Source: a virus. From it: DNA of 46,477 bases. Positions 5,392-39,386 of the stretch are shown here, in pieces. Position numbers and translations under genes: made by a program. How positions within the stretch are numbered: the first letter of the stretch is position 1; each line of letters starts with the position of its first letter. The DNA lies in IMG/VR virus record IMGVR_UViG_3300047494_000043, positions 1 through 46,477 of that record. One strand, given 5' to 3'. Under the pieces are notes generated by a model. The model was not told where the DNA came from. It saw only the letters and a program-made list of their open reading frames with translations, and searched no databases.

Positions 5392-7119
5392 ATGTCAGGC
5401 GCATCTACAACTTTTACTTTAACTGTTTCGGATCTTAGTGGGCAGGTGTGGAAGAATGGGAGTATTACTTATCAATTCTTGCCTAATCCTACATACAGCG
5501 GTATTTATAACTGGGGCGGAACTCCTTTGCCGCTTAATTATAGATTTCCTACGACTATATCTTTAAATAGCTCGGGCTATGGTACTTTTACTGTCCCGTC
5601 TTCTACTGATATTGCTCCGGCAAATAGCGCATGGTCTATTACCGTAACCCCAAATGCGTCTTTTCCTAGTTTTGTATTTGCTATCCCTGCCGTTGGCACG
5701 ACGGAAGATATTAGTACTATAGTTAACGCTGCTATTAATATTGTAGGTATTGGAGGAGCGTATTTTCCACGGGCGTATAATGATAATGAAGTTAAAGTAA
5801 TTCCAGGACAAGGCGCGTATTATTACAATACAAGTACTAAAAGCACACGAGTATGGGATGGGTCTAGCTGGTCAGATTTAACTACTGCGTCAAATCTTGT
5901 ACTTACTGTACCTCTGACCACAACACCATATGGGAGTGGGTTTTCAGTAATTGCTAACAACGCGAGTCCTTCGGATATTTACAATACAATCTATACCGCT
6001 GGAAAACCATATGATGTTATTGTAGGGGCTATAGTAATTCCATCCACTGCTATACAATACCAAGTAGATGCAGTAGCAGGGTATGTCGAAAATCATTGCA
6101 CTGTTTCTAATGCGGTAGCGCTTTTTGGACAAGCTCTGCATAAAGTGACAGGAGGGTCTAGCTGGGGACAGGATGTTGTATTTGCAGATACGGCTACTAC
6201 CGCCGCAACAGTGGGATATGCACAAGAACTTGATACACAACCATTTGGACCTGCTTCAAGCTACCCGCAAGATTATTCTTTGATGGGATCTTTTAATTCT
6301 CTTTTCGCTCCGCAGGCAGGGCTGTTTGGTTCTGCATTCGTAGCAGCTAGAGGAGAAGTAGGCCAGTGGAAACTTGCGTTTAATTCTTTTGCAGGGGCTG
6401 CTTTTGTAGGTTTAAAACTTAGCTACCAAAGCGCTACTGTATTTCCTTCGGATAGTCAATATATTAACCTCGTAGCTAACGATGGCACTGCTGAGCAAAG
6501 TTCTATTATTCAAACTATTGCAACTACTAAAGGACTTAGATTAACTCCTCCTACAGGTGGAAATGTTGAAATAAACGGTGGTTCTCTTGTTGTAGTTACA
6601 GGAAATGGTTCTGTAACCGCACCGCTTATAAATGCAAGCAGTGTCGATCAGACTGCTTGCGGAATTACTAGCGGGGTTAGTTCTACTACTATTACCGGAA
6701 ATAAATTTGCATTTAAAAGTTATATTTTTGGATCTACAGCTGCACGATGGAGTGCTTCGTATTATTCAGAATACGGGGCATCTTACTATGGAATGTGGTT
6801 TGGAGCTAATGCGTCTGCGCCTAGTAGCGATGGGCAAATTATTCGGATGGACTCCATTAATAGCTCCGGAACAACTTTAAATGCTTTTTTACAACTCGAT
6901 CGGAATGGGGTTTTTAATTTAAGCGGTGCTCTTTCTTATAATTTTCAGGGGAGCGCTCCTATTACTACGAATAGTACTATTAATGCTTCGGGGTATTCTA
7001 TAACAGGAACACCGGGTATTAGTACTACTGTGGCATTAGCAAAACTAACAACATCCGGAACAAATGGTTCTCTTACATTTGCCGGCGGGCTTTTAATATC
7101 TAAAGTAGATCCAACATAG
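5392..7119 (+). CDS. Tail fibre / receptor-binding-type protein
   Basis: The product is 575 residues, rich in Ser, Thr, Gly, Ala and Asn with predicted beta structure, typical of phage fibres. The N-terminal ~90 residues (DLSGQVWKNGSITYQF and a following proline/glycine stretch) resemble the N-terminal domain of the next protein (DSDGTVWAGGSGTVVL), so the two share a duplicated beta-sandwich attachment or binding domain. Residues about 115-170 contain a repeat-like sequence ending VWDGSSWSDLT, often seen in fibre stalks. The ribosome-binding site is aaggag. No catalytic motif is seen. Its role is probably host recognition at the tail, which is inferred from composition and position at the end of the late operon. 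Confidence 0.7.
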   Translation: MSGASTTFTLTVSDLSGQVWKNGSITYQFLPNPTYSGIYNWGGTPLPLNYRFPTTISLNSSGYGTFTVPSSTDIAPANSAWSITVTPNASFPSFVFAIPAVGTTEDISTIVNAAINIVGIGGAYFPRAYNDNEVKVIPGQGAYYYNTSTKSTRVWDGSSWSDLTTASNLVLTVPLTTTPYGSGFSVIANNASPSDIYNTIYTAGKPYDVIVGAIVIPSTAIQYQVDAVAGYVENHCTVSNAVALFGQALHKVTGGSSWGQDVVFADTATTAATVGYAQELDTQPFGPASSYPQDYSLMGSFNSLFAPQAGLFGSAFVAARGEVGQWKLAFNSFAGAAFVGLKLSYQSATVFPSDSQYINLVANDGTAEQSSIIQTIATTKGLRLTPPTGGNVEINGGSLVVVTGNGSVTAPLINASSVDQTACGITSGVSSTTITGNKFAFKSYIFGSTAARWSASYYSEYGASYYGMWFGANASAPSSDGQIIRMDSINSSGTTLNAFLQLDRNGVFNLSGALSYNFQGSAPITTNSTINASGYSITGTPGISTTVALAKLTTSGTNGSLTFAGGLLISKVDPT

Positions 7120-9446: not shown

Positions 9447-10658
9447 TTATGGCTTCCCTTTCACACTAAATTTATACCATTGCTTACCGCCCTGACTGAA
9501 GGCGGTAATTATATGGCTGATTTCTAAAGTCTTAAGGATTCTATCAATATCATCCATCGTAGCATGACGGTGATTGTCTCGGACTAGCTCGCTTCTATTA
9601 CAAAGCCCTTTCCTTTCTATGTAGGTCATTATTTTTGCGGTCGCCTCAGCCAATGAAGATTCCCCGACCCCCCTAAATGTGATATCGAGAGTATCGAGAA
9701 CAGACTGGACGAAAGCAATAGCGGTACTAAGACACCACCTGTCAATAACCAAATTATCAGACCCAGCAGCACTGAGGCACATAGCAACTTTAATAACATG
9801 GATGTTCTGCCTCGCTTTGAAGTGTCGTACTACGTCCGAGTCGTGATCTGTTGTGCGGATGGTTTTGTAGAATGAGGACCACAAATGGTATGCTTCGTTG
9901 TCGAAAGTAAACTCGCCGTGGAGATGACTTATAATTTCCAAATCATCACGCAAATTTTGAATAAGGACTGGTCCGTTCTTAGTATCCTTAAGAGCCACTG
10001 GCCACGGGAGATCTTTTGATTTTTCATTTGCAAAGACGAATATAGTTCTAGCAGTAAATCCACCGTTGATCGCCTCAGCCGCATTTTTTCCTCCATTAAT
10101 CTTTCGGATAAAATCGGGGACGCACGCACCAATAAGACTAACGCACATATCCTTAACGTGAGAGCTACCTTTGTTTTTAGTATCATATTCAAACTCATTT
10201 TTATCCCATGTATCACAGAGGAAAGAGGTCATCCAGTCGGATGAGCTTAGAAAAGTAGAAAGCTCAGTTGCCATAATAACCGCCGTGGCTTCATTACCAG
10301 CTACTATTTGACCCGCCACAACACTTTGCGTCTGGAACCCATTCGCGAGTTTTTCAATAATCTTTGGTGCTGTGATTCGATCGGATAGATAATTTGATAG
10401 TACAGGTTTATAATCTTTGATAAAGGCATGAGCAGGGTGTATAGCAGAGCCTTTCCCCACTCCCGGCGGGCCAACCAGTACGATATATTGGTTGGGATAT
10501 ACTTTGTAAGTACCACGATTCACCCACACTTTCTTCTTAAGCACTGCACTTATGACTGATATTGCGGACCACATTGTAAACGCTGACGGGGCTTCACTTA
10601 CCGGGTCAATCGCGCTAACATACGAAGTCACCCAATTGTTTAGCTTCCGTGGCGGCAT
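9447..10658 (-). CDS. DUF3987-like P-loop ATPase, putative replicative helicase/primase partner
   Basis: The product is 403 residues. A Walker A motif GPPGVGKG is at residues 63-70, and a likely acidic Walker B/sensor region is near 126-132 (VIMATEL). The overall pattern (N-terminal WSAISVISAVLKKKVWVNRG, P-loop, IGACVPDFI, GGFTARTIFVF) matches the DUF3987 phage/plasmid ATPase family that replaces DnaB-type helicases in some replicons. The C-terminus looks like a winged helix. The start ATG at 10658 has a gggag ribosome-binding site and lies inside the 3' end of the polymerase gene (44 bp overlap). Its likely job is DNA unwinding at the replication fork. Family assignment is by eye. Confidence 0.7.
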   Translation of the reverse strand: MPPRKLNNWVTSYVSAIDPVSEAPSAFTMWSAISVISAVLKKKVWVNRGTYKVYPNQYIVLVGPPGVGKGSAIHPAHAFIKDYKPVLSNYLSDRITAPKIIEKLANGFQTQSVVAGQIVAGNEATAVIMATELSTFLSSSDWMTSFLCDTWDKNEFEYDTKNKGSSHVKDMCVSLIGACVPDFIRKINGGKNAAEAINGGFTARTIFVFANEKSKDLPWPVALKDTKNGPVLIQNLRDDLEIISHLHGEFTFDNEAYHLWSSFYKTIRTTDHDSDVVRHFKARQNIHVIKVAMCLSAAGSDNLVIDRWCLSTAIAFVQSVLDTLDITFRGVGESSLAEATAKIMTYIERKGLCNRSELVRDNHRHATMDDIDRILKTLEISHIITAFSQGGKQWYKFSVKGKP

Positions 10659-12195
10659 CTACTTCATCTCCCTGTGCGTCTACTACACGTTGCTCTTCTT
10701 TGTATTCTTGGAGCTTGTACCATGCTACTTGGAGGTCTGAATAAGATAAGTCCTCTACTTTTTTAGTCTTAGTGATTGCGGATTTGAGAGTCTCGGTATG
10801 GTAGAAGTCATAACCAAATTCTGCCTCCCAAGGTATTTCTACTTCGATACCGTTATGAAATCGTATCGTTCGTGTCGAATGTTTACGAGTGTTTTGTAAG
10901 TGATCCCAAATTGAATCTACATTGTCATCTATTTCTTGTATGATAGAGTCGTGAGATTCTTGGATTACTTTACCGGCGTATCTACTATCACCACGCTCGA
11001 TGCCGTAGACGGTGAATCCGGTATTATCGCCCACCGATGATTGAGGTATGTAGCTGTATGCTTCGTTAAATATTTTGTTATTCGATCCGCTCTCTCCGGC
11101 CCTAAGTCCGAAAAAGATTCTTTCTCTCCCAAAAGGTGTTCTAAGGGTACGGTCTTTGTAGAGGCATTCTTTAATGTACGCATGAAAAACTCCATCTACG
11201 CTAGGATCGACTTGATTAACTTTCTTAAGAATCTCATCACACTGATGTGATGTTAAGGAGTGACCTTCCTTAGCAAGAGAATCAGACATTGTGTTACCAC
11301 GCATACCATAATTGTTAGCGTGCCGTGTCTTCTTCCCTAAAAATCTTTCAATGGAATCTTTCCATTCCTTCTCGGTATAATGGTCCCAAGGGATATCAAA
11401 GATAAGGCAACCGAGTTTACGATGCCTATCTACACCAGATCGTAGATCATCTAATGCCTCCATGTTATTAGCAAGCGCGCTCGTAGGCCAATCCTCGGCT
11501 TGCATTTGATCGACCATTAGAAAGATTTTACCCGGTCGTGCTACTAGGCATCGACGGAAGATTTTGGCGAGTTCTCCGTGCTTAGGGAAATTTTGTGCGT
11601 TTCCTCCATAACCGAAAGAATGCTTCCTAGATCCGCGGCGTCCTGTAACAGTACCAGCACAATTGTAATTTGTAAGGAATAAACTATAGTCCCCACAAGG
11701 AAAAAGATTAGCATTGATATATCGTGCGCGAAGTGTAGATAATTCTCGTATACGTAGCAAAGCGCGAATTGCTGGATCGCCGCCAATAGTATTAAACTGA
11801 TTCGTAGCGTATATTTTTTGGAGCGTAAGTTCCGCAAGTGATTCTTTTGCAATATAGTTTCCATCCTCATCACGACCACTCACTTTCGGGATTTTAAATC
11901 CCATTCTTTTTAGTTGCTCTAGTGGGGTATTAGCACCGCTACTGCTATTAAGATTAATACTAGCACCTACTAGGGGCTTATTGGCACTACCGATGTAGCA
12001 AGGTACGTTCCAAACTTGCGATACTACGTTGCACTGCGATAATATATCATTGTTTATATACTCCGATGCGTCATCTAGTCTTTTCTTATCGACTACTATT
12101 CCCCTAGAGTCGATACGATGGTAAATCGCTTGCAACTCGTGTAGGTATTGGTTTGTTATCTTGTCCATCTTTATCCGCCCATTTCTTATGGTCAT
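10615..12195 (-). CDS. DNA polymerase, family A, polymerase domain only
   Basis: The product is 526 residues and holds only the palm/fingers/thumb part of a PolA-type enzyme. Motif A is VDQMQAEDW (228-236, catalytic Asp229), where the usual Arg is Trp. Motif B is GKKTRHANNYGM (287-298), of the phage KxxxHxxNYGM type. Motif C is ESHDSI (413-418, Asp416). The proofreading exonuclease is absent and is encoded by a separate gene about 1 kb upstream in the operon (13175-14290). An internal start at 12168 (MDKITN) is possible. The N-terminus overlaps the small Cys gene upstream by 92 bp. It copies phage DNA at the fork with the SSB-like and DUF3987 ATPase genes of the same arm. Confidence 0.85.
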   Translation of the reverse strand: MTIRNGRIKMDKITNQYLHELQAIYHRIDSRGIVVDKKRLDDASEYINNDILSQCNVVSQVWNVPCYIGSANKPLVGASINLNSSSGANTPLEQLKRMGFKIPKVSGRDEDGNYIAKESLAELTLQKIYATNQFNTIGGDPAIRALLRIRELSTLRARYINANLFPCGDYSLFLTNYNCAGTVTGRRGSRKHSFGYGGNAQNFPKHGELAKIFRRCLVARPGKIFLMVDQMQAEDWPTSALANNMEALDDLRSGVDRHRKLGCLIFDIPWDHYTEKEWKDSIERFLGKKTRHANNYGMRGNTMSDSLAKEGHSLTSHQCDEILKKVNQVDPSVDGVFHAYIKECLYKDRTLRTPFGRERIFFGLRAGESGSNNKIFNEAYSYIPQSSVGDNTGFTVYGIERGDSRYAGKVIQESHDSIIQEIDDNVDSIWDHLQNTRKHSTRTIRFHNGIEVEIPWEAEFGYDFYHTETLKSAITKTKKVEDLSYSDLQVAWYKLQEYKEEQRVVDAQGDEVDAATEAKQLGDFVC

Positions 12196-12979: not shown

Positions 12980-13178
12980 CATTATTAGAAAGCTCCTTTG
13001 GTTTTTGTTCTGCGAGTAATCGAGCATTTTGTGCGTACTCGATAAATTTTTGGTTTATCTTGCCGAGATGTGCTACTAAGCTCGGTTGGTGGATGTTTTT
13101 TAAGATCGTAGCGAAATTCATGAACTCAGAATTGATCGCGGAATAGAGTTCTTCTTGAGAGTGTTCGTCGATTATCAT
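12972..13178 (-). CDS. Hypothetical helical protein, 68 aa
   Basis: The product is 68 residues with predicted long helices (EELYSAINSEFMNFATILKNI and KINQKFIEYAQNARLLAEQK). It overlaps the exonuclease stop by 4 bp (ATGA type). Such small helical proteins next to replication genes may be accessory factors. I have no family match. Confidence 0.6.
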   Translation of the reverse strand: MIIDEHSQEELYSAINSEFMNFATILKNIHQPSLVAHLGKINQKFIEYAQNARLLAEQKPKELSNNGI

Positions 13179-14290
13179 AGTAATCCTCTTTCTTGCATTT
13201 CGATTTCTTGTTTTTCATAAATTTCGTAGGTTACTAGCACATCCTTACAGCCGTACCGTTTTAATTGCGCTAAGTCTTTAATAGACCAGCCATGGCCTTC
13301 CGACTTGTAGTAAACCTCGCGCGTATACTGCCTTGTCTGAAACTGAAGCGTATGTTTTAACTCAGCCCAGAGTAAGTGATGCCGAATCATAGTATCTCGG
13401 CACTTATCTAGTGGCAAGCGAAAACCGAGCATCTCGTAAAAATTTGCATCAAAGTTAAAGAAGTTTTGGCCAATTGACGGAACCTCCCACATCAACTTAG
13501 CAAGATGTTTCCACAATTCCCGTGTCTCTACTGTACTCGGACGAAAGAAATCAAAAGAAATAGAATATGTAGCAGAAATAGCAAGAGCAATAGTAATAGG
13601 ATACCCTGGTAATATCTTGTAGAACTGAGACGGTTGAGTTTTAGTAGGAGCTTTTGGATAGATCGTCTCAATATCGTTTGATATAAACTTGTGCTCAAGA
13701 AAAGAATCAATGATATAAAGCAGCTCGTCAAAAGATTCAAATTCGATTTTATGTTCACGTATTGGCAAGGGTTCAAGGGAGCCATGTTTTTTATAATACT
13801 CCAACTCACTGTACGCTTTGCCGAGGTCGCAATTAATAACTATATCTCGTTGTTTCCACTGCTTGACCACGTTAGCAGGGCCCAGAGTGGGGATAATATA
13901 ATGAGGCCAATCAAAACGGTCACAAGTAAGCAACGATCCGCAATATTTTGAAATCTCCGAATCTTCATCGTCTCCTATTTTCCGTCGTTTGAATTTGGTC
14001 TGCATTTCTTTCGCATACCATTTTCCAGCGTTGTCCAGAGGTATAATAATACGGGGTTTATGATGATGTAAGTAAGAGTCGATATCGCCGCCGTTAGTAG
14101 GGCTATCAGTATCGGGACGAATACAAGTAGTATAATAAGAATCAAACCCCGCCTCCTTCATCATTTTATCAAAGACATAGCCCATATTAGAGGAAAAAAG
14201 GTAGCCTTTATCTATGTCACTAGATAAAGGCTTTTCACAAATAACCCATACAGGCGAGTCAGGGGAACCTTTGGGGCTTATTATTGGCAC
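13175..14290 (-). CDS. UDG-like domain fused to DEDDy 3'-5' exonuclease (split PolA proofreading part)
   Basis: The product is 371 residues in two parts. Residues about 12-145 have the uracil-DNA-glycosylase superfamily pattern: VWVICEKP, the frame GYLFSSNMGYVFDKMM, YYTTCIRPD, KPRIIIPLDNAG and IIPTLGPAN. The iron-sulphur cysteines of family 4 enzymes are missing, so activity is doubtful. Residues about 185-371 are a DEDDy exonuclease: Exo I NDIET (205-209, Asp206 and Glu208), Exo II GQNFFNFD (274-281), Exo III YGCKD (346-350). This is the proofreading half normally joined to the polymerase, which here is 1 kb downstream. SPO1-type phage polymerases are also known to carry a UDG-like domain. 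It probably proofreads and helps bind DNA. Confidence 0.8.
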   Translation of the reverse strand: MPIISPKGSPDSPVWVICEKPLSSDIDKGYLFSSNMGYVFDKMMKEAGFDSYYTTCIRPDTDSPTNGGDIDSYLHHHKPRIIIPLDNAGKWYAKEMQTKFKRRKIGDDEDSEISKYCGSLLTCDRFDWPHYIIPTLGPANVVKQWKQRDIVINCDLGKAYSELEYYKKHGSLEPLPIREHKIEFESFDELLYIIDSFLEHKFISNDIETIYPKAPTKTQPSQFYKILPGYPITIALAISATYSISFDFFRPSTVETRELWKHLAKLMWEVPSIGQNFFNFDANFYEMLGFRLPLDKCRDTMIRHHLLWAELKHTLQFQTRQYTREVYYKSEGHGWSIKDLAQLKRYGCKDVLVTYEIYEKQEIEMQERGLL

Positions 14291-26429: not shown

Positions 26430-26666
26430 TTAAATACCAAAAGACTGCGGGTGATTGAAGCAGTGATAAGACGCGACCATGCACTTAGCGGCTTCGTCTA
26501 GATGTTTATTATGTTTAATTTTAGCTTCTGCTAGCATCTCGACAATCTCAGTGTTAAATGGCGCCGTCTTAAACGCGAACTCAACATCTGCAAGATAGTT
26601 ATTCTGTGCCGCATACAATTCACGTATCGCAGCATCACGCCAAAACTCACAACTCGTTCGGGTCAT
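26430..26666 (-). CDS. Hypothetical helical protein, 78 aa
   Basis: The start ATG 26666 (MTRTSCEFWRD) has gggag upstream and lies inside the end of the preceding gene (20 bp overlap). The product is helical throughout (RDAAIRELYAAQNNYLADVEFAF). It is unknown. Confidence 0.6.
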   Translation of the reverse strand: MTRTSCEFWRDAAIRELYAAQNNYLADVEFAFKTAPFNTEIVEMLAEAKIKHNKHLDEAAKCMVASYHCFNHPQSFGI

Positions 26667-27345
26667 TGTTTTTATTATCTCCCATATCGTTAGATTCAAT
26701 TAATTCATCAAGTACAAAACCGGGTTGTGTTAAAAGTAAATCCATTCCAACTTTATTCGATGCCATAACAACAGAACCTGTACGTTTAGCAAGAATCGCG
26801 TTAATAGCATCCTGCACATCGGAATCAGGATCAACTTGTGTGTTTTCAAGCGCATCTTGCTCTACTACTGTAAGCGGCGTTGGATTAAGTGTTATTTGAA
26901 TATGTTGTTTCTTCTCAATCCATTTAGATAGCGATGTACTATACACAGCCACAGCACGATTAGCGTTACCTAATTGTCTCCGCAACTCACGCGCACGTTG
27001 CTCATCGAATGGCTGTTTCATCATAACCGCTGACAAATCATCCATTAGATTCTTTTGTACAAGCATCGCTTGTTCGTAATTAAACTTTCGATCTTCCAAA
27101 CCACGCTCATACTTCGTTTGCTGCATAGAGCCAAAGATAGCTTTATTAATAACAGCTTCTCGCTTCGCATTCAACGCCTCAACACGTTCAAATATCATCT
27201 TCGACCCATTCGCAGTACCGAAGAATCTACGCTTACCCGTATTAAGATCATCCTGCTCCGCGGCGTATCTAATAGCAAATTCCTCTTTCAACAGAGCAAT
27301 CTCACTATCAATCCTCGCAACTCTATCCTTCACTATCTGCCTCAT
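26647..27345 (-). CDS. Coiled-coil protein, 232 aa
   Basis: The product is 232 residues. The first 150 residues are rich in charged helices (VARIDSEIALLKEEF, VEALNAKREAVI, FDEQRARELRRQLGN) suggesting coiled coils; an acidic, disordered C-terminus follows. The ribosome-binding site agaggag lies before ATG 27345. It is the first gene after the strong promoter at 27445 and is likely an early protein. It is unknown. Confidence 0.65.
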   Translation of the reverse strand: MRQIVKDRVARIDSEIALLKEEFAIRYAAEQDDLNTGKRRFFGTANGSKMIFERVEALNAKREAVINKAIFGSMQQTKYERGLEDRKFNYEQAMLVQKNLMDDLSAVMMKQPFDEQRARELRRQLGNANRAVAVYSTSLSKWIEKKQHIQITLNPTPLTVVEQDALENTQVDPDSDVQDAINAILAKRTGSVVMASNKVGMDLLLTQPGFVLDELIESNDMGDNKNNDPNEL

Positions 27346-37366: not shown

Positions 37367-38568
37367 ATGCCTACACAAGTACGGGGCGCGTATCCTAAAC
37401 TAATGGCTCCGGGGTTGCATAAGATTTACGTAGATGCTCTTGAAACGGAACAGCGTGCAGAAGAGTATCAGGCTATTTTTAACGTAAAGACTTCTACCTC
37501 GGAGTATGAGCAAGACTTGAAGATGGCGGGGTTTGGTCCACTTCAGGAAAAGCCGGAAAATACGCCCGTTGCGTATACTAATATGATCCAGGGTGGCGAT
37601 AAGCGGTATATTCACCTTACCTATGCCTTGGCGGTTCGTACTTCTAAGGAATTGTGGCAGGATGCTAAGTACGGGGTTATTAATCAGGCTCCTAAAGCTC
37701 TTGCTCGTTCTATTCGGTATACGAAGGAAATTGTTGCTTTTAATACTTTTAATCAGGGATTCTCCACTAATGTCACTACGACTGATGGGGTTTCGTTGTT
37801 TAATAACCAGCATCCTCTTCTTGGCGGCCCTAGTGCTACTTCGACGTGGAGCGCGCTTCCTAATCTTATTAGCGCGGCGGGTACTTTCCCCAATCGCCCT
37901 GCTACGGATATTGATCTCTCGTTTACTGGCGTGCAGCTTGGCACAACGCAGTTCGAGCGGTTAGTAGATTCGCAGGGGCTGCCTATTAACCTGAAGCCGA
38001 AAATGGTTCTTATCGCTCCTGAGAATCGTTTCCTCGCTCGTGAATTGTTCGGGTCTAGTGGTAAGCCCGCAACTGATACCAACGACATTAACTCACTTCT
38101 CGGTGAAGATTTGGGTTATATGGTTTGTCATTATTTCACCAACGCTGGCCCTTGGTTTATGGTCGCGGATAAGAAAAATCACTCCCTAACTGTATTCATG
38201 CGGCAGAATCCTGAAGATGAGTTTGATGAGGACTTCGACACTGGCGCTATGAAGCAGAAGACTACCATGCGTATGTCTGCTGGAGCTACGGATTGGTTAA
38301 ATTAATAGCCCCTCGTTAAAGTAATTTAACGATGAGAACTTCGTGAATTCAGGGAAACACCTGCCAAGGTCAATCCTGAGCCAAGCCACTAATAAGTGGA
38401 AGGTGCAACGACTATCCCGACGGGGAGTAGGACTCAGCGAGTCCGAAGCGCGAAGCATCCATTATGGATGATGATATAGTCTGATCTTTTAGGTAACTAA
38501 AAGAGTTAAATCGGAAGCGGATTTAACGTAACATTAATGTAGGCACCTGGGGAAGTAATGGGGCTTAG
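37367..38568 (+). CDS. Major capsid protein, interrupted by a group I intron
   Basis: Exon 1 is 37367-38297 and exon 2 is 38540-38568. The unspliced frame ends after DWLN at 38305 (312 aa). Removing 38298-38539 joins codon T|TA and adds GTWGSNGA before TAG, giving 319 residues. The sequence is that of an HK97-fold capsid protein: a helical N-terminus (EQRAEEYQAIFNVKTS), DGVSLFNNQHPLLGG in the middle, LIAPENRFLARELF, and a final beta strand (KQKTTMRMSAGATDW). It builds the shell around the genome. The splice sites were chosen because they restore a glycine-rich in-frame C-terminus, as is usual in this family; the 3' site is less certain. Confidence 0.85.
38298..38539 (+). ncRNA. Group I self-splicing intron in the capsid gene
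   Basis: Group I core elements are visible in order: P2 hairpin CGTTAAA/TTTAACG (38314-38331), the P/P4 box aatcctgagccaagcc (38372-38387), P6 hairpin CCACT/AGTGG (38386-38399), and the Q/R run aaggtgcaacgactat (38400-38415). After these come hairpin ggactc/gagtcc (P8, 38430-38444), the S box with ATAGTC (38476-38481) pairing R GACTAT (P7), and P9-type hairpins TTTTAG/CTAAAA and GTTAAATC/GATTTAAC. It ends in G. It is about 242 nt with no ORF inside. P1 (GGU with GCC) is short and its register uncertain. Confidence 0.85.
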
Positions 38569-38619
38569 GGTGACAGATTGACCCTTCGACGGCAACCCAT
38601 TTAAAATGAACGACATAGA

Positions 38620-38666
38620 CCTCCTTGACTGTGACGCCATGCGCGAGTATAATTCAGTCAAGGAGG
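38620..38666 (+). promoter_or_regulatory. Promoter inside an inverted repeat that masks the HNH ribosome-binding site
   Basis: cctccttgactg (38620-38631) and cagtcaaggagg (38655-38666) are perfect 12-bp inverted arms. The left arm holds TTGACT (-35, 38625-38630); TATAAT (-10, 38648-38653) lies 17 bp on. The right arm holds the aaggagg ribosome-binding site of the HNH gene. Read-through RNA would form the stem and hide the site; RNA started here (about 38660) would lack the left arm and be translated. Confidence 0.85.
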
Positions 38667-38670
38667 ATTT

Positions 38671-39336
38671 ATGGAATCGTATGTTTGCAATATATGTGAA
38701 GTGTTAAAAGAAGAAAGTCTTTTTAAGTATGAAAATGGTAAGGTTCAGAAAACAACTTGCCGTAAATGTTTGAGCAATAAACATAGACTTGAACTGAAAT
38801 TGGAAATGTTCGAGCATCTTGGTAATGTTTGCGCTTGCTGTAAAGAAGATAATCCTGCTTTTTTATGTTTAGATCATATTAATAACGACGGCCATATAGA
38901 AAACAGAAGACTGGGCGAAATCATTGCAATGGCACGAAAATCTGGTTGGGATAAGACTAGATATCAAGTGCTTTGTTTTAATTGTAATATGGCAAAAGCT
39001 AATTTTGGTGGTGTTTGTCCGCATAAACTTTTACTGACTTTACAAACAATCGTAGAAAATAAAAATCTGTATATCCGTTCTATGGGACGTACAGTAGGTA
39101 ATTTCGATACATCTAATTTAGCCGCTGCTAGAGAAGTTCTTAAACAGAAAAGATTAGAGCGTGGAGAATATGGAAGGGACGCAGCTACTCGAAGTAAAGA
39201 ATACCGAGAAAGGCATCCTGAATATAAAGACCGTAAGAAAGCCTTAAGACAGGAAAAAGCAATAACAAATACCTTAAATGCTCTTACTCCAGAACAGCTA
39301 GAGCAGTTGCAAAAGATGATGTTGGCTAACGCTTAA
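38671..39336 (+). CDS. Free-standing HNH homing endonuclease next to the intron
   Basis: The product is 221 residues. An N-terminal zinc finger (CNIC...CRKC, residues 6-34) precedes an HNH/recombination endonuclease VII-like core: CACC (about 54-57), LDHINNDG (67-74), LCFNCNMAKANFGGVCPH (about 110-127). The C-terminus is basic and then helical. It lies about 100 bp beyond exon 2, outside the intron, with its own promoter and hairpin control. It probably cuts capsid genes that lack the intron and so spreads intron and itself together. The aaggagg ribosome-binding site is 5 bases before ATG 38671. Confidence 0.9.
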   Translation: MESYVCNICEVLKEESLFKYENGKVQKTTCRKCLSNKHRLELKLEMFEHLGNVCACCKEDNPAFLCLDHINNDGHIENRRLGEIIAMARKSGWDKTRYQVLCFNCNMAKANFGGVCPHKLLLTLQTIVENKNLYIRSMGRTVGNFDTSNLAAAREVLKQKRLERGEYGRDAATRSKEYRERHPEYKDRKKALRQEKAITNTLNALTPEQLEQLQKMMLANA

Positions 39337-39351: not shown

Positions 39352-39386
39352 CCCCTACCGGCGGCCATCTCCCTAACCGGTAGGGG
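39352..39386. terminator. Hairpin after HNH gene
   Basis: CCCCTACCGG (39352-39361) pairs with CCGGTAGGGG (39377-39386) around a 15-base loop. There is no T-run, so it is a weak terminator or an RNA stability element that separates HNH and lysozyme messages. Confidence 0.55.

Follow-up and report, generated by a model that had tools for sequence, protein, structure and literature searches.

The window, meaning the whole 46,477-nt stretch of DNA analysed, is a tailed-phage virus record with a two-strand gene layout: early and replication genes (DNA polymerase, primase, a Sak4-like annealing protein) are read from the minus strand, and packaging, capsid and lysis genes from the plus strand. The locus described here comprises the following features.

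37367-38297, plus strand: exon 1 of the major capsid protein gene (P0002, which reads on into the intron), from Pfam and PHROG matches
38298-38539, plus strand: group I intron without an ORF, 242 nt, from Rfam, with boundaries from intronless relatives
38540-38568, plus strand: major capsid exon 2 with the true stop at 38566-38568, from intronless relatives
38620-38631, plus strand: hairpin left arm CCTCCTTGACTG, comprising the anti-Shine-Dalgarno sequence and the -35
38625-38630, plus strand: -35 hexamer TTGACT, within the left arm
38648-38653, plus strand: -10 hexamer TATAAT, in the loop, after a 17-bp spacer
38655-38666, plus strand: hairpin right arm CAGTCAAGGAGG
38659-38661, plus strand: transcription start predicted from spacing, 6-8 nt past the -10, at the first Shine-Dalgarno (SD) base
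38660-38666, plus strand: SD AAGGAGG, wholly within the right arm
38671-39336, plus strand: free-standing HNH/endonuclease VII-like ORF of 221 aa (P0001), from PHROGs and an AlphaFold model
39352-39386, plus strand: stem-loop CCCCTACCGG/CCGGTAGGGG, counterpart of the capsid-gene terminator of relatives, with the stem kept and the T-run lost

The capsid protein matches Pfam Phage_capsid_4 (6e-13) and Mu-like_gpT (9.5e-8) and is a major head protein by PHROG. In about 20 related phages with 93-95% identical capsid proteins, the uninterrupted protein ends in ...DWLGTWGSNGA*, and joining the two predicted exons of the window would restore exactly this tail; the apparent capsid stop at 38305 falls within the intron. 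The whole of Rfam model RF00028 (positions 1-253) aligns at 38288-38503 with 98.6 bits (E 2e-24), that is, with the conserved core present. The ORF-less group I introns of loci L017 and L024 are related to that of the window and sit at a second insertion point in the capsid gene end, 14 nt further downstream.

The HNH gene begins about 100 nt past the true capsid stop and precedes the capsid terminator. Because the intron ends at 38539 and the capsid stop is at 38568, the gene is free-standing and lies outside the intron. A hairpin inside the intron, as in the I-TevI layout, was rejected since both of these boundaries are upstream of the hairpin, and the endonuclease is a separate ORF past the capsid stop rather than part of the capsid reading frame. 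The original prediction, that the endonuclease is reached by read-through from the capsid region, agrees with this gene order; it had overlooked the intron in the capsid gene and the free-standing nature of the endonuclease gene.

HNH-less relatives have a strong terminator directly 3' of the capsid gene, and the stem-loop at 39352-39386 has the same place and the same loop, GGCCATCTCCC, as those terminators. At HNH-bearing loci the HNH gene stands between the capsid stop and the terminator, which in L017 follows the HNH stop immediately and is intact. Capsid transcripts must therefore enter the HNH gene. In the HNH-less loci of L001-L022, a long variable hairpin (e.g. GACGTGCTATGA...TCATAGCACGTC) lies between the capsid stop and the terminator and is perhaps an RNA-stability element.

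P0001 belongs to the PHROG HNH endonuclease/endonuclease VII families (best 1.1e-15 in the alignment), with a Pfam HNH match below the cut-off. The DH..N and CxxC motifs are invariant among the aligned HNH proteins, and the nearest structures to the AlphaFold model are the HNH nickase 4h9d and T4 EndoVII (1e7l), with weak scores. The motifs and this weak fold match point to an HNH/EndoVII catalytic fold with its cysteine pairs. The putative endonuclease would cleave intronless capsid genes. The HNH profile gave no meaningful match when searched against PDB sequences, and searches for close HNH homologues with the single sequence and among annotated phages returned distant matches only, which are uninformative on the leader.

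The region upstream of the HNH start contains the perfect 12-bp inverted repeat that had been predicted, with the -35 in its left arm, the ribosome-binding site (RBS) in its right arm and TATAAT at the anticipated 17-bp spacing. The predicted host-type consensus is likewise borne out: TTGACT-17-TATAAT matches the sigma-70-type consensus at 11 of 12 positions, a consensus that is assumed to hold for the host of this phage. The proposed span, 38620-38670, encloses all of these parts, and its right end moves to 38673, since the start codon is also paired. The TATAAT lies 17 nt 5' of the HNH ATG (38671). Within the 46-kb window the hairpin is one of only four perfect repeats of at least 12 bp with a loop of at most 40, and the promoter is one of only two 11/12 consensus sites. 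The computed folding energy of the 131-nt region, -32.7 kcal/mol, is 2.8 sd below that of its shuffles (-23.9 +/- 3.2).

The hairpin was rejected as an intrinsic terminator, the right arm having no T-run after it and the terminator lying beyond the HNH gene. Another promoter-like site, TTGACC-18-TAAAAT at 38578-38607, was also set aside: a start near 38614 would give closed RNA (18.6 kcal/mol), its conservation was not seen, and it is probably a chance match.

The RBS accessibilities are calculations for 37 C that take no account of ribosomes or proteins. In read-through RNA the cost of opening the RBS is about 19-21 kcal/mol (20.6 in the shuffle test); for any 5' end upstream of 38614 it is 18.6-20.2, and the SD has an unpaired probability of 0.000. 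The spliced read-through RNA is still closed, with an opening cost of 15.0. When the upstream part was shuffled the cost fell to 6.2 +/- 2.0, and 0 of 200 shuffles reached 20.6 kcal/mol; the 106 other genes with an SD have a median of 5.4 and a 95th percentile of 9.9. The HNH starts of the window and its homologous loci are more closed than these ordinary genes (p 1.6e-9). For RNA beginning at 38657-38660 the computed cost is 1.7-1.9 kcal/mol, and for RNA from 38660 the unpaired probability of the SD is about 0.4. The cost drops sharply for 5' ends past about 38624, so that the earliest end to free the RBS is at about 38624-38628 and any start directed by the TATAAT would free it. These values favour both RNA forms that the original prediction had envisaged, namely read-through RNA with a hidden RBS and promoter RNA that lacks the left arm and exposes it; stronger support comes from the recurrence of this logic at homologous loci that were gathered independently and whose arms differ in sequence.

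We gathered relatives of the HNH protein by protein similarity alone. After one near-duplicate was dropped, the set of those behind a capsid gene comprised 15 members: the window and 14 further loci (L017, L023, L024, L035, L036, L037, L039, L040, L124, L126, L127, L128/L133, L134 and L141). Their HNH proteins are about 34-43% identical to that of the window where compared, and their leaders have no common sequence. Most nevertheless show a TTGACA-like hexamer, 17 bp, TANNNT, about 5-7 nt and then the SD; L126, L127 and L040 have an extended -10 only. In L141 the automatic promoter pick was wrong, and the real TTGACT-17-TATACT lies farther upstream. RBS closure relative to upstream shuffles is significant at p <= 0.005 in 8 of the 15 members and at p <= 0.05 in 3 further members, and is not significant singly in L036, L040, L124 and L126 (shuffle p 0.08-0.18). 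When the 15 members are combined, closure has a p of about 4e-14 and the promoter one of about 2e-15, values that overstate independence because the members are related. L042 and L046, which also lie behind capsid genes, have neither hairpin nor promoter.

Left and right arms of the same locus pair at a mean of -16.9 kcal/mol, compared with -11.5 +/- 0.8 for left arms exchanged among the loci (0 of 20,000 permutations), a test that controls for the inherent complementarity of AAGGAGG and TTGACA. In most members the left arm lies upstream of and over the -35; in L128 and L133 it is in the spacer, and in L126 and L127 over the -10. Across the members, the target of the pairing and the order of the promoter elements stay constant, and the arm sequence does not. 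The motif TGAAAACAAAGGGGTTAG or close variants lie directly upstream of several capsid-linked HNH promoters (L124 at 2417, L035 at 2927, L039 at 2903, L023 at 5967, L036 at 2918). This motif, possibly a regulator site, is absent at the HNH promoter of the window and occurs at window positions 27501-27484 (minus strand), upstream of the promoter of the second hairpin gene described below.

A pair of loci with and without the endonuclease bears on the mobility of this arrangement. L017 has a block at 5945-6842 made up of intron, rebuilt capsid end, hairpin promoter and HNH gene, where L016 has only 31 nt. The two loci share 99.98% identity over the 5,944 nt left of this block and 100% identity over the 127 nt right of it. 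Presence and absence at a fixed site between identical flanks is the pattern expected of a free-standing endonuclease. Since the two loci differ by exactly this block, the intron, hairpin promoter and HNH gene move as a unit, and by this sequence comparison the endonuclease gene was gained (or lost) along with its leader and the intron. An IS10-type insertion sequence, which would have a transposase gene and terminal inverted repeats, was rejected, as the gene is an HNH/EndoVII gene and the L017 block occupies a single fixed site, its end being the HNH stop. Some relatives carry the endonuclease without the intron.

Similar arrangements were seen elsewhere. A second hairpin gene of the window (26647-27345, minus strand, 232 aa, for which Pfam gives no significant match) is preceded by the other 11/12 promoter, at 27445-27417 (minus strand), and by a strong RBS-closing hairpin with an opening cost of 18.6 kcal/mol and a fold 4.9 sd below shuffles, its left arm lying at and just past the -10; its homologue in L286 keeps the promoter and does not clearly keep the hairpin. 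The order of anti-SD/-35, -10 and SD within one hairpin is also found before unrelated bacterial and phage genes:

L285, L249, L262 and L227: HicA-like genes (Pfam PF07927 for L249 and L227; L285 below the cut-off)
L234, L240 and L265: genes of unidentified product, with 16-19 bp stems
L118: a YqeY-like gene behind a recombinase-like gene
L239 and L274: DUF3990 genes

The strict DNA pattern search matches many unrelated genes, and because the pattern itself imposes 6 base pairs its matches were discounted as evidence, save where stems are much longer than 6. Elsewhere in the window, the DNA polymerase is split into two genes (13175-14290 and 10615-12195, minus strand) with small ORFs between them; the two genes correspond to neighbouring stretches of a single PHROG profile (482-828 and 838-1274), and an intron sought between these two genes was not found.

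We consider it probable that a hairpin leader silences the HNH gene in capsid read-through RNA while RNA from an internal promoter is translated, and that this whole is the best explanation of the locus. The HNH gene, with the ORF-less capsid intron, would have been inserted between the capsid stop and the capsid terminator, and every capsid transcript would run on through it. In such read-through RNA the 12-bp hairpin, extended by pairs that include the AUG, would close the RBS, so that abundant late RNA would yield little or no endonuclease. The host-type sigma-70 promoter inside the hairpin would give RNA without the left arm, and as this RNA alone would be translatable, endonuclease synthesis would not depend on capsid transcription and would probably be confined to an early phase and a low level. 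The analysis establishes the layout, the accessibility predictions, the conservation of the design despite rebuilt arms and the mobility of the block; use of the promoter, its start site, the translational effect on HNH and its timing, and with them an RNA switch, are what we infer. The short leader of the predicted promoter RNA, about 11 nt when starting at the SD, counts against this explanation.

Alternatively, the gene would be expressed only from processed read-through RNA (for example, after an RNase cut in the loop) or by low-level leak, with the hairpin silencing translation and the promoter match incidental. For T4 and Aeh1 the literature describes processing sites of RNase E type and free-standing endonucleases that lack a promoter (PMC2988022), and the -35 is weak or missing in L126, L127 and L040. 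However, the window promoter matches at 11 of 12 positions and promoters are enriched over the members (p ~2e-15); the exact spacer of 17 and the ~5-7 nt from -10 to SD, found in most members, are not needed for processing; and L042 and L046 lack hairpin and promoter alike. We regard this account as unlikely.

The promoter could also be real and the inverted repeat a DNA operator, bound as a dyad by a repressor or by the endonuclease itself, rather than an RNA switch; I-TevI binds an operator overlapping its own promoter (PMC2988022), and the -35 does lie within the repeat. An operator would conserve sequence and not pairing to the RBS, whereas here the arms vary freely with pairing kept, and the left arm shifts while its target is always the RBS, which makes an operator quite improbable. 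That a strong SD and a strong -35 are complementary by accident is scarcely credible: the consensus forms AAGGAGG and TTGAC can pair at a few bases, and similar sites occur before unrelated genes, but the 12 perfect pairs and the shuffle, swapped-arm and control-gene tests all speak against such mechanical overlap.

With silencing by the hairpin and escape through the internal promoter as the preferred reading, the class of that promoter bears on timing. In the window, TTGACA-17-TANNNT sites lie on the early strand only, among other places upstream of a tRNA pair and an early gene, and the HNH promoter therefore resembles the early class read by host RNA polymerase. Early HNH expression and late silence would then be expected, the reverse of I-TevI. 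More tentatively, and with the odds somewhat against it, we hypothesize a self-insulating cassette in which an early host-type promoter within an RBS-closing hairpin allows HNH to reside in the strongest late transcription unit of the phage and to be expressed only until that unit is switched on. This design may have been rebuilt repeatedly from new sequence and may recur by convergence ahead of other stand-alone genes, namely HicA-type toxins, a YqeY-like gene and another gene of the same phage.

Transcription is probably higher at the HNH site than anywhere else in the genome, and the findings suggest that late expression should not be presumed for genes that capsid read-through reaches. About 15 rebuilt hairpins, two lineages without them and one empty/filled pair form a natural comparative series, which makes testable why homing endonuclease genes need silencing on read-through RNA and whether leaders evolve by conserving geometry over sequence.

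IS10/Tn10, the classic case with a host promoter, is reportedly protected from external promoters, its read-through RNA remaining untranslated (Davis, Simons and Kleckner, 1985, cited in PMC2965389). The HNH locus resembles it in having a mobile gene, a host-type promoter inside an inverted repeat and read-through RNA that is predicted to be silent; IS10, however, is a chromosomal insertion sequence and encodes a transposase, whereas the gene here is an endonuclease in a phage capsid operon. Among the papers searched, none brought together a group I intron, the gene for a major capsid protein and an HNH endonuclease. In collaborative homing, an ORF-less group I intron and a free-standing endonuclease beside it are inherited together (PMC10448857, PMC2988022), as described for the psbA intron and F-CphI of cyanophage S-PM2 and for T3-like phages (PMC10448857, PMC2988022, PMC6083498). 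The same two elements adjoin here, with the differences that the host gene encodes the capsid, that cleavage at the intron site is putative and that some relatives have the endonuclease and no intron.

RBS-closing structures with promoter RNA that escapes them are known for I-TevI, I-TevII, I-TevIII, T4 segB and Aeh1 mobE (PMC2988022, PMC3014915). The original prediction had drawn the parallel with T4 I-TevI and its late promoter, correctly according to these reviews, and had missed the nearer analogues segB, mobE and IS10. As in the I-TevI, segB and mobE leaders, the RBS is paired in the computed structure of upstream-derived RNA, and the predicted promoter would give RNA without the 5' arm. 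I-TevI (td intron), I-TevII and I-TevIII share the closed RBS in read-through RNA and an own-promoter RNA without the 5' arm, but are intron-borne ORFs with late (or middle) phage promoters, whereas the locus here has a host-type promoter, an ORF outside the intron and predicted early rather than late timing. T4 segB and mobE of Aeromonas phage Aeh1 are, like the HNH gene, free-standing, and have a promoter located together with an RBS-closing RNA structure (PMC2988022, PMC3014915); they belong to T4-like phages, use T4 late promoters and do not lie at a capsid terminator, and no series of rebuilt hairpins is described for them in these two reviews. Because TTGACT-17-TATAAT is a sigma-70-type pair and not a T4-type late promoter, the locus would work like the T4 class without belonging to it. 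Thus, the control logic is already known, and its extension from T4-like endonucleases to an unrelated phage group brings what is new: the host-type promoter, the niche at the capsid terminator, the repeated rebuilding and the predicted reversal of timing.
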